A DNA stretch of 64,000 bases from Acidimicrobiia bacterium. GTDB taxonomy: Bacteria > Actinomycetota > Acidimicrobiia > Spongiisociales > Spongiisociaceae. The position numbers and the translations under genes are program-made. Every line of letters begins with the position of its first letter. The stretch's first letter is position 1. The notes beneath the pieces are model-generated. The model had not been told where the DNA came from. It did not search any database and saw only the letters and a list, made by a program, of their open reading frames with translations. The DNA is taken from assembly GCA_011523635.1 (NCBI GenBank), contig WTGI01000030.1, forward strand, positions 1-64,000, given 5' to 3'. Shown here in pieces: positions 23,068-55,954 of the stretch.

Positions 23068-23102
23068 CTAACCAATTACTAATAACTAGTAACTAGCAAC
23101 TA
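23068..23102 (-). repeat. Heptanucleotide tandem repeat, 5 units
   Basis: Read on the minus strand the units are TAGTTGC, TAGTTAC, TAGTTAT, TAGTAAT and TGGTTAG, in exact 7-base register. The first unit contains the TAG stop codon of the epimerase gene, so the array begins inside the gene's last codon. Seventeen of 18 bases of ACTAGTAACTAGCAACTA recur in the array at 54.7 kb. CTAG is otherwise rare in such genomes, which makes the cluster stand out. Confidence 0.7.
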
Positions 23103-24056
23103 AAGACTGACCCGGCCCTCGGCGAGCAGCCGCCGGAAATCGTCAACCGTTCCGGCGATCCCCTCCGCCAGCGAGCGCTGGGAAGTGTCGATGGCCCGCT
23201 CAAGGCCGGCGCCGTCGATAATCGAGGGAAGCGGGAAGGGCGCATCGTCATAGGTGGTCTCGATTCCGGGAGTGGTGGCGTCGATCGCCGCCGCCACCTC
23301 CGCGATGTGAGCCACCGGTCCGCCCACGTTGTGGACCAGGGCCCGGTCGGCCTCGAGGCGGGCGGCGGCGATGAAGATGCGGGCCATGTCCTGGGCGTGC
23401 TGGTAGGTGACCGTGCCACCGTGGGTGATGTGGGCGGACACTCCGGCGGCTGCGGACAGCATCGCCACCGTGGCCGCCGACGTGAGACCCTGGTCTCGTC
23501 CCAGTCCGTAGATGACGGAGGGTCGGAGGCCTACGGAGCCGATTCCCCAGTCCGCGCTGTAGATCCGGGCGGTCCACTCGTTGGCCTGCTTGTAGGCCCC
23601 GTAGAGCGTGGTCGGGGCGGCGGGGGAGTCATCGTCGACCCTCCCTCCTTCGTACATCTCGGCGGGGCCGAACACGCCGATCGAGCTTGCATACGTGACG
23701 CCCCGGACCCGGCCGTCGGACCGGCGGGCTGCCTCCAGGACGTTGAGGGTCCCGGTGACGTTGACCCGTGAGCCGTTCACCGGGTCGGCCGCGCAGAACG
23801 GGACCTGGAGGGCGGCGAGGTGGACCACATGGGTGATCCGGTTGTCCGTGATCACCCCCTCGACCGCCTCGCTGTCGCGAATGTCCCCCTGGCGGAAGCG
23901 GACGGTGGAAAGCTCGTCCTCGTCCAGCAGGAGGCGCAGGCGATGGGGAGTGTCGCTTATGTCGAAAGTGACTACCGGAGTTCCTTCCCTGACCAGCTCG
24001 TGAACAGCCCATGCGCCGAGGCATCCGGCTGATCCCGTCACCAGGAACCGTTCCAT
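23100..24056 (-). CDS. NAD-dependent epimerase/dehydratase
   Basis: Extended short-chain dehydrogenase of 318 aa. N-terminal GSAGCLGAWAVHELV is the GxxGxxG nucleotide motif, VVHLAALQVPF the conserved strand, YASSIGVFGP the Ser region and YGAYKQANE the Tyr/Lys catalytic pair. The start ATG (MERFLVTGS) follows an AAGGCGGGAAAT leader. Eighteen further codons are open upstream but implausible. Sugar-nucleotide epimerase is the usual activity; the substrate is not identified. Divergent from the peptide-transporter operon. Confidence 0.9.
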   Translation of the reverse strand: MERFLVTGSAGCLGAWAVHELVREGTPVVTFDISDTPHRLRLLLDEDELSTVRFRQGDIRDSEAVEGVITDNRITHVVHLAALQVPFCAADPVNGSRVNVTGTLNVLEAARRSDGRVRGVTYASSIGVFGPAEMYEGGRVDDDSPAAPTTLYGAYKQANEWTARIYSADWGIGSVGLRPSVIYGLGRDQGLTSAATVAMLSAAAGVSAHITHGGTVTYQHAQDMARIFIAAARLEADRALVHNVGGPVAHIAEVAAAIDATTPGIETTYDDAPFPLPSIIDGAGLERAIDTSQRSLAEGIAGTVDDFRRLLAEGRVSL

Positions 24057-39854: not shown

Positions 39855-39859
39855 CCTAG

Positions 39860-40022
39860 TGGTCTGTCTGCGAAACAGCTTGGCGTGTTCTGGCTGCCAT
39901 CGGTGTCCCGTCGCTGCGTTCCGCTTCCTCAACGTACCGCTGCGGGTACGCCTTCGTCAGCGGGCCTTGCGAGGAACACCGCTGCCGACGCCATACCACA
40001 CCGCCATTCCACAGACAGACCA
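39860..40022. mobile_element. MITE-like element, 163 bp with inverted terminal repeats
   Basis: CCTAGTGGTCTGTCTG at 39855-39870 is repeated exactly in inverse at 40012-40027. The terminal tetranucleotide CTAG on both sides could be a 4-bp target duplication, leaving termini TGGTCTGTCTG. No transposase is encoded; the interior has a small hairpin (CGTACC...GGTACG). From memory, IS701-type transposases duplicate YTAR, which CTAG fits, but the parent family is unproven. The right end lies immediately before the next gene's ribosome site. Confidence 0.5.
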
Positions 40023-40035
40023 CTAGGTGGCGTGA

Positions 40036-53524: not shown

Positions 53525-54541
53525 ATGTCATATCTGCAGGCAAACGATGTCGCCAAGCGTTTCAATGGCACGTCCGCGCTGGCCGGTGTCGACCTGGCGG
53601 TCGAACAGGGTGAGTCGCTGGCCCTGCTCGGTCCCAGCGGATGCGGGAAGACCACGCTGCTGCGCATCCTGGCCGGTCTGGAGGTTCCCGACCGGGGCGA
53701 CATCACGCTCGAGGGAGAGACCCTCACGGGTCCGGCCCGGTTCGTGGCTCCGGAGCAGAGGCGTATCGGGATGGTCTTCCAGGACTGGGCGCTTTTTCCC
53801 CACATGACGGTGGCCAGGAACGTCGCGTTCGGGTTGGGCAAGGCGGGAAGTAACGGCCGGGTCTCCGAGACGCTGGACCTGGTCGGCCTGTCGCATCTGG
53901 CGGACCGGTACCCCGACGAGTTGTCGGGGGGCCAGGCGCAGCGGGTGGCCGTGGCCAGGGCACTGGCCCCTCGTCCCCGGGTGCTGCTCTTCGACGAGCC
54001 GTTCTCGAACCTCGATACCGGCCTGCGCACCAGGATCCGGGCCGATGTGGCCGCGCTGATGCGCGAGGTGAGGATGACCTCGATCTTCGTCACCCACGAC
54101 CAGGAGGAGTCGTTCGTGGTGGGGGACCGGGTGGCCGTGATGCGCGAGGGTCGGATCGAACAGGTCGGCCGGCCGGCCGACGTGTACCAGAACCCCGCCT
54201 CCTCCTGGGTGGCCACGTTTGTCGGTGAAGCCAACGTGCTGGGTGGGGTGGCGACCAACGGGCACGTTTCCACCGCGGTCGGGGAGGTTCCCCTGGCCGG
54301 CCCTCTGAGAGGACCGTGCGAAGTCGTCATACGTCCCGAGTACCTGGTGGTGGGTCGGGGGGACCAGGGTGTGGTCTCCGCGGTCGAGTTCTACGGGCAC
54401 GACACCACCTACCAAGTGGCTCTCAACGGTACGAAACTGGTGGCCCGGGTGATCGCCGCACCCGACTTCGCGCCCGGTGACCGGGTGTCCGTGTCCTACG
54501 CCGGCCCCGGAGCCGCCGCCTTCGCTGCCGCTGGTTCTTAG
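53525..54541 (+). CDS. ABC transporter ATP-binding protein, FbpC/PotA-type
   Basis: A 338 aa ATPase of the ferric-iron/spermidine/sulfate class. Walker A LGPSGCGKTTLLR, Q-loop MVFQDWALFPHMTV, signature LSGGQAQRVAVARAL, Walker B VLLFDEPFSNLD and H-loop FVTHDQEES. A C-terminal TOBE-like beta domain (from about 235) holds EVVIRPEYLVVGRGDQG. CAGGAG precedes the ATG. No permease or binding protein follows, so it is an orphan in this locus; the upstream iron-box-like site suggests iron. Confidence 0.9.
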   Translation: MSYLQANDVAKRFNGTSALAGVDLAVEQGESLALLGPSGCGKTTLLRILAGLEVPDRGDITLEGETLTGPARFVAPEQRRIGMVFQDWALFPHMTVARNVAFGLGKAGSNGRVSETLDLVGLSHLADRYPDELSGGQAQRVAVARALAPRPRVLLFDEPFSNLDTGLRTRIRADVAALMREVRMTSIFVTHDQEESFVVGDRVAVMREGRIEQVGRPADVYQNPASSWVATFVGEANVLGGVATNGHVSTAVGEVPLAGPLRGPCEVVIRPEYLVVGRGDQGVVSAVEFYGHDTTYQVALNGTKLVARVIAAPDFAPGDRVSVSYAGPGAAAFAAAGS

Positions 54542-54679
54542 TTGTGGTCTGTTGGTTGGATGTCAGTTAGGCCGCTGCGGTTCCCCTAACCCGCTGTCTC
54601 ACGAGCTCCTCGCTTCAGCACGACGGAAACCCGGACGGTCTACCGACATTGGAACGATCTAGTCCATCGCCAAGAGTAG

Positions 54680-54755
54680 ATAACTAACTATTGACTAGTA
54701 ACTATCGGACTAGGAACTAATCAACTAGTGACTAGCAACTATCGACTAGGAACTA
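54680..54755 (-). repeat. Heptanucleotide tandem repeat array, about 10 units
   Basis: On the plus strand units end in ACTA at 7- (occasionally 8-) base spacing: ATAACTA, TTGACTA, GTAACTA, TCGGACTA, GGAACTA, ATCAACTA, GTGACTA, GCAACTA, TCGACTA, GGAACTA. The minus strand reads TAGTYNN. Six CTAG tetramers fall within it. It ends 20 bases before the ispH start codon. Same family as the array at 23.07-23.10 kb. Confidence 0.75.
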
Positions 54756-54775
54756 GGCAGGGTACACTTCGCGAG

Positions 54776-55954
54776 ATGCCGGAGACCGCCCTCACCACCA
54801 GCCGTCCCAGACGCGTGTATCTCGCCGAGCCGAACGGATACTGCGCCGGGGTGTACATGGCCGTCAAGGCGCTCGTCTGGATGGTCCAGATATTCGACGC
54901 CCCGGTCTACTGCTACCACGAGATCGTCCATAACCGGTTCGTAGTGGAGTGCTTCGAACGGGCCGGGGTGGTGTTCGTCGACTCGATCGACCAGGTGCCG
55001 GAAGGCGCTCCCGTGATGCTGTCGGCCCACGGCTCCGCCCCCGAAGTGGTGGCGGACGGGGAAGAGCGGGCCGGGATCGTCATCGACGCGGTCTGCCCGC
55101 TGGTGGCGAAGGTTCATCATGAGGTCAAGCGGCGGGCGGCGAAGGGGTTCGACATCATCTTCGTGGGCCACGAAGGGCACGATGAGGCGGTGGGCACCAT
55201 GGCCCGAGCGCCTTCGAACATCACTCTGGTCGAACCGGAGACGGGGCTGGCAGGCTTCAGGCCCAGGGATCCCAGCAAGGTGGCGCTCTTCGCCCAGACC
55301 ACTCTCGGGATGCACGAGTGGGAGGCGATCAGGGCCGAGGCCTCGGGGCGCTACGAGAACCTGGAGACCTCTCGCAAGAGCGATCTGTGCTATGCCACCA
55401 CCAACCGCCAGGATGCGGTACTCGAGATGAGCTCCGAATGTGATCTGATCCTGGTGGTTGGTTCCGACAACTCCTCGAACACCAATGCCCTGGTCCGGAC
55501 CGCCCGTATGCGCGGCGCCGCCGCCTACCGGATCGACTCCGCGGATGCGATCCGATCCGAGTGGCTGGACGCTGCGGAAGTGGTCGGGCTGACGGCGGGC
55601 GCATCGGCTCCCGACCACCTGGTCCGGGAGGTGCTCGAGCGCCTCGATCCTGCCGAAGGGTGGAGCCTGTTCCGGGTTACCGAGGAGGATGAGTACTTCC
55701 CTCTACCGCGCGGGCTGCGGTCCTTGCTGAATGCGTTGGTGTCGACGGTGCGGATCGGGTTCTCTGCCCCCTCGAACGGCAAGGGACCGCTCGACTACGA
55801 CCGGCGGGTCACGGCCACCGACGCGCTCGCCAAGTTGGAGTCCTTCCCGTCGGGTCAGCCGGCCCTACCAGCGGCTGGACTCCTCGGCGTACACATGGTC
55901 GGGCAACCTGTAGCTGATACCCGCTTCGTCGAAGACGGAGACCTGGAGGAGTGA
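54776..55954 (+). CDS. ispH: 4-hydroxy-3-methylbut-2-enyl diphosphate reductase IspH
   Basis: Last enzyme of the MEP pathway, forming IPP and DMAPP with a [4Fe-4S] cluster. Cluster Cys at GYCAGV (Cys23), DAVCPLVAKVH (Cys107) and SDLCYATTNR (Cys205). Substrate residues: HEIVHN, SAHGS, GHEGHDEAVGT (Glu137) and GSDNSSNTNAL. It is 392 aa, some 60-70 longer than usual, with a C-terminal extension after DYDRRVTATDALAK. The last 90 bases overlap a convergent gene. No strong ribosome site; the heptamer array lies right upstream. Confidence 0.93.
   Translation: MPETALTTSRPRRVYLAEPNGYCAGVYMAVKALVWMVQIFDAPVYCYHEIVHNRFVVECFERAGVVFVDSIDQVPEGAPVMLSAHGSAPEVVADGEERAGIVIDAVCPLVAKVHHEVKRRAAKGFDIIFVGHEGHDEAVGTMARAPSNITLVEPETGLAGFRPRDPSKVALFAQTTLGMHEWEAIRAEASGRYENLETSRKSDLCYATTNRQDAVLEMSSECDLILVVGSDNSSNTNALVRTARMRGAAAYRIDSADAIRSEWLDAAEVVGLTAGASAPDHLVREVLERLDPAEGWSLFRVTEEDEYFPLPRGLRSLLNALVSTVRIGFSAPSNGKGPLDYDRRVTATDALAKLESFPSGQPALPAAGLLGVHMVGQPVADTRFVEDGDLEE

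Follow-up and report, generated by a model that had tools for sequence, protein, structure and literature searches.

Does the tandem array of heptamers lying directly upstream of ispH, in a genome from the Acidimicrobiia, control this gene, or is it a repeat that has come to lie beside it? The question was addressed in a window of 64,000 nucleotides, the whole stretch of DNA analysed, together with the genome it comes from and its relatives. Arrays of heptamers are found repeatedly across bacteria, in several phyla, but there is no agreement on how they arise or what they do. The genomes used are drafts, for which genes were called by us: starts are approximate, and ispH was missed by these calls.

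The array in the ABC-ispH spacer

The array, originally predicted as ten units at 54680-54755, is recognized by TRF at positions 54685-54756, with period 7, 10.0 copies and 65% matches; the same program detects a higher-order period of 37 bp, with 91% matches. The units, approximately ten, are degenerate forms of RACTANN: they read AACTAGC on the plus strand and TAGTTGC on the minus strand, to which the array is assigned. Of the six CTAG tetramers originally described, five fall within the predicted interval; base 54756 is needed to complete the sixth. The distance from the array end to the ATG at 54776 is indeed 20 bp, and the gene is ispH (lytB; 54776-55954, plus strand), as indicated by its match to PF02401, LYTB (E 5e-80); it is present in 10 out of 10 genomes of the genus. 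A search of the window against Rfam gave no matches.

On the other side, the spacer is bordered by an ORF for an ABC transporter ATPase (53525-54541, plus strand; PF00005, E 2.3e-36), whose own stop codon starts another set of heptamers. This degenerate proximal arm (54539-54560, plus strand), read directly, begins at the TAG stop with TAGTTGTGGTCTGTTGGTTGG; its TAGTTG-like units are clearer in two congeneric genomes, G005 and G003 (TAGTCATTAGTTGTTAGTTG). The array adjoining ispH is the distal arm of a degenerate inverted pair, located in the ABC-ispH spacer.

A second array is found in the window at 23070-23109 (minus strand), where an in-frame TAG (CTA on the plus strand, 23100-23102) is the stop codon of a minus-strand gene of the epimerase/dehydratase family (23100-24056; PF01370, E 2.1e-33), which ends inside the array. 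The two arrays had been described as sharing a stretch too similar for chance, and this is borne out: 18 of 19 bases are identical between AACTAGTGACTAGCAACTA (54723-54741) and AACTAGTAACTAGCAACTA (23084-23102), and the three-unit pattern RACTANNRACTANNRACTA has 112 matches in the whole 3.15-Mb genome, against none for a reversed control.

The putative -10 box of ispH, TACACT (54763-54768, plus strand), begins 13 bp before the ATG, at 6 bp from the array end. TACAAT or TACACT is kept at this place in the alignment of seven other congeners, and a GGGTACAAT/TACACT box is present shortly before the ispH ATG in all the congeners read, except the distant G009. Upstream of 260 starts of the genome under study (G000), TANNNT shows a sharp enrichment at positions -15 to -12; a peak at such positions is expected for leaderless genes in actinobacteria. 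Because of the conserved box, 13 bp before the ATG, and of this peak, the ispH mRNA is probably leaderless, and would exclude the array. The effects on translation initiation and on mRNA stability, suggested by the original prediction, are not supported, the array lying probably outside a mRNA of this type. The same is true for its third suggestion, a variable spacer, because each promoter-side unit has its counterpart in every one of the five carriers: no sign of a length-variable switch is seen in the sequences compared.

The five congeneric genomes carrying the array are G000, G001, G003, G005 and G007; the place of the array is not readable in G006, where the recovered ispH match is without its first 101 residues. 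The gene is retained without the array in four congeners (G008, G004, G002 and G009), and the first three of them have the same -10 box as the carriers. The ispH tree, based on nine genomes, does not resolve the branching within a six-genome group including G008, and favours neither gain nor loss of the array at ispH. In G008 a different repeat is located in place of the array, also ending in YTAG beside the promoter (L080): this repeat, GCGTGTTCACGCTATGCGCGTTCGTT, recurs in spacers beside YTAG, at gene ends of G008 and G004. One TGA is reported inside the ispH match of G003 (L083).

The promoter-side 41 bp of the array (54716-54756, minus strand) are conserved in the four other carriers, with 90–98% identity, versus 74–83% for the non-array spacer; comparable stretches at other arrays reach up to 95% (G005) and 100% (G007). 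The segment may possibly have been co-opted as promoter-upstream DNA, a suggestion to be read alongside the similar conservation reached at other arrays, and the array may have an effect on the initiation of ispH transcription. As regards ispH itself, the results mainly lower expectations: a repeat lies beside a promoter that is conserved and probably leaderless.

A dispersed family in register with stop codons

The family, whose unit on the other strand is TAGTTGC, has a lineage-specific presence. Its pattern is found in eight of the nine congeners, with numbers ranging from 2 matches (G004) to 255 (G005), and has 0 matches in G009; in the rest of the order it is patchy. Other families of the order feature TAGTY heptamers of their own (TAGTTGG, TAGTCCG, TAGTCRT), again mostly at gene 3' ends; because the search for them used a TAGTY pattern, their common core is in part a matter of ascertainment. 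Exact TAGTTGC arrays are also seen in other phyla, in many Chryseobacterium, a Kangiellaceae MAG, Rhodopirellula and others (L149-L228), where the stop register is not uniform and, in Chryseobacterium, orientation is often opposite to the gene end. Some other genera of the order (G027, G124, G079, others) have many matches to the reversed control, ATCARNN, suggesting that they contain heptamer families of a different kind; TCAGTTA, which is TAACTGA read on the opposite strand, would fit this pattern.

Genomic localization was analyzed in 536 kb, consisting of the stretches around arrays plus the window, a sample chosen for arrays, which contains 64 arms of at least three units. For 43 of the 63 arms with a called neighbour, the array begins between -24 and +5 bp from a gene 3' end, and 21 arms are at exactly -3, where the TAG stop codon is the first unit. 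When the stop is contained in unit 1, 2 or 3, the first one is used in 21 out of 31 arms, while one third would be expected for a random frame (p 1.5e-4). The period-7 arrays of this array-enriched DNA are all intergenic (38 out of 38); among spacers of at least 40 bp, the share bearing arrays is 14/33 for convergent, 24/171 for tandem and 3/57 for divergent ones. Close neighbour arms, within 250 bp of each other, are inverted in all cases (12/12), and always in the same order. Arrays are also located after tRNA-like 3' ends (L058, L347; tRNAs recognised by eye): a stop codon is therefore not required. No shared sequence was found behind the arrays, beyond the heptamers themselves and a few CACTGACC arms. 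On C38 two loops are identical, apparently through a local duplication that also covers the neighbouring gene end.

For 38 gene ends, orthologs were compared in G005, G007 and G008, or in G004, G008 and G002, and for a few more in all congeners; clean comparisons of filled and empty sites are provided by few loci. In 10 of the 13 loci that could be judged, by eye, the array-free ortholog has TAG at the same place, whereas TAG is used by 34% of genes (146/425; p 0.002). At three loci (L053:4048, L059:2970, L073:11939) the stop codon is TGA, also in array-free orthologs: here the array starts just after it, at a TAG of its own. In 57 of the 64 arms a pyrimidine (C or T) stands before the first TAG, versus 54 of 115 other genes ending in TAG. 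With the TAG usually retained in array-free orthologs, and with this preference for a pyrimidine, nucleation seems to take place at YTAG sites that were there before the arrays. At L048:4920 the empty site of G008 reads cgactTAG|GATCTCGAGTCATGG, while in G000 cactTAG is followed by a heptamer hairpin of about 85 bp, ending in CAACTAG, and then by AATCCAGGATCATGG; only this array looks flanked by YTAG on both sides. The start point can be read to the base, growth apparently proceeding from an existing YTAG, usually a stop codon, for which relatives have an array-less counterpart; the origin of the arrays is therefore testable, by setting filled sites against empty ones.

Pure arrays differ by whole units between close genomes: the one following the gene upstream of a dnaK-like gene has 4, 7, 6 and 6 units in G000, G007, G005 and G006, respectively. 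Degenerate arrays tend to hold their unit number between close genomes. TAG-less variants of the unit, of the CAGTGGC/CGGTGGC type, are found in G003, G004 and at one G007 locus.

Origin of the arrays and alternative explanations

The same genomes host a mobile element to which the arrays are tied. It is a MITE of 172 bp, found in the window at 39855-40026 (no strand assigned), with inverted ends TGGTCTGTCTG/CAGACAGACCA and CTAG flanks. Its copies are dispersed, at high copy number, in all congeners but the most distant, and several are present in G000 (examples are L041:5201-5372 and L068:9049-9217). CTAG is its target duplication, because the empty site of the L041 copy, in G005, has a single CTAG. 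Some copies begin at the TAG stop of a gene, and three stop codons bearing arrays in G000 carry the MITE in a relative: L052:12661 in G004, L057:4045 in G002 and L073:2833 in G008. In G000, L073:2833 features an array followed by a MITE remnant without its tip. The same target tetramer, some shared stop codons and this junction liken the MITE to the arrays, which differ from it in being without its terminal inverted repeat and its interior. A common insertion preference is suggested; a shared enzyme is not thereby proven.

The reading that we prefer, and regard as on balance probable, is that the ispH array is an old, worn member of the dispersed, non-coding TAGTTGC/AACTAGC family. Its members would start from YTAG sites already present in spacers, most often from TAG stop codons, where an insertion spares the protein, and many of them would become inverted arms, facing each other across the spacer. 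A pure array would gain or lose sequence in whole 7-bp steps, until degeneration freezes it; gene 3' ends would tolerate arrays, which divergent promoter regions mostly would not. At ispH, the distal arm would have come to lie directly upstream of the -10 box, probably outside the mRNA, with its promoter-side 41 bp perhaps co-opted later. Arrays are taken here as nearly neutral, and as seeded by some machinery, two points that we infer.

As to how the units arise, arrays might have been stacked up by successive rounds of insertion and excision at CTAG, a unit being the 4-bp target CTAG plus 3 bp left by an element end: CTAG+TTG would generate TAGTTGC, and CTAG+TGG, from the MITE tip, the TAGTGGC-type arrays of G003 and G004. 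If true, this would explain at once the 7-bp unit, the starts at TAG stops and the sites common to MITE and arrays. The CTAG duplication of the MITE, the shared stop codons and the array-remnant junction at L073:2833 speak for such a derivation, yet the MITE tips inspected have no heptamers directly next to them, and an element with TTG at its tip was not found: we consider it quite unlikely.

The main rival of a tolerated, worn repeat is a terminator or 3'-protection role for a subset of the arrays. These would be functional 3'-end elements, whose inverted arms generate long mRNA hairpins, terminating transcription or protecting 3' ends, and the pair at ispH would insulate it from the upstream ABC gene; arrays would lie at stop codons and between convergent genes because of their hairpin role. 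The strong bias to convergent spacers fits this proposal, as does the finding that some relatives keep a hairpin with different units. Folding is in part favourable, 17 of the 43 array ends having a z below -2, versus 15 of 120 controls, but more than half of the array ends show no unusual fold, and the ABC-ispH spacer itself folds only weakly better than shuffles (z -1.95 in G000, -1.10 in G005). Array presence, moreover, varies between close species, and the array at L048:4920 separates tandem genes only about 11 bp apart in the array-free G008. Such a role is, in our view, rather unlikely. Selection may nonetheless act on arrays, in view of those 17 ends, whose folds are far better than those of shuffles, and of the conservation of the 41 bp nearest to the ispH promoter.

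Adjacency to the -10 box and conservation of the 41 bp could also be taken to indicate a dedicated regulatory element of ispH, acting at transcription initiation, for instance as repeated regulator binding sites upstream of the -10. The same units are found, however, at dozens of unrelated gene ends, the conservation is not clearly above that of other arrays, and four congeners do without the array, three of them with an unchanged -10 box, which makes a dedicated element distinctly improbable. Finally, because 7 cannot be divided evenly by 3, every reading frame would be stopped by three TAG units, and arrays might serve as fail-safe translation stops, in agreement with their start at stop codons and with TAG in the conserved core of the unit. 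The TY following TAG is equally part of what is conserved, arrays occur after tRNA 3' ends too, and orthologous arrays in G003, G004 and G007 consist of CAGTGGC/CGGTGGC units, without TAG after the first one: the proposal is largely refuted, and we give it hardly any credit.

Comparison with known repeats

Dispersed short tandem heptamers are known in spacers of cyanobacteria, as STRR repeats, with units different from those described here; we know of no stop-codon register for them. REP/BIME elements, mobilised by RAYT transposases, are similarly intergenic, arranged in inverted pairs and found at gene 3' ends, but are single palindromes, in contrast to tandem 7-bp units. Mobilisation of the REP/RAYT type was rejected, as none of the genus's 10 genomes was found to encode a Y1 transposase (PF01797), versus 5 of 14 control genomes. 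No report of such arrays in Acidimicrobiia was found in the literature.

TAACTGA direct repeats, described in marine Beggiatoaceae, Cyanobacteria and Bacteroidetes (PMC4679880), are also genome-dispersed, intergenic 7-bp repeats with a stop-like motif. In Maribeggiatoa most of them are forward-oriented and lie directly before start codons, inverted copies being rare (PMC4679880), whereas the arrays reported here are mostly at gene 3' ends, and often inverted.

The closest precedent is given by the GGGAATC and GGGGA(C/T)T heptamer repeats of Xanthomonas and Nostoc, whose function is unknown (PMC4692102). They are, likewise, short dispersed intergenic 7-bp arrays, with many inverted pairs, length variation between relatives and a bias for positions just downstream of stop codons or overlapping them (PMC4692102). 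The TAGTTGC family belongs with this class, by its arrays of 7-bp units dispersed in spacers, its inverted pairing and its position near or across stop codons, on the coding strand. TAGTTGC contains no G-run, and hence no G-quadruplex, unlike GGGAATC repeats. Other differences are the unit and the taxon, the stop codon serving itself as first unit, the apparent nucleation at YTAG and the presence, in the same genomes, of a MITE targeting CTAG. Stop-proximal heptamer arrays were already known from Xanthomonas; what is new here is the TAG register, the apparent nucleation at YTAG and the taxon.
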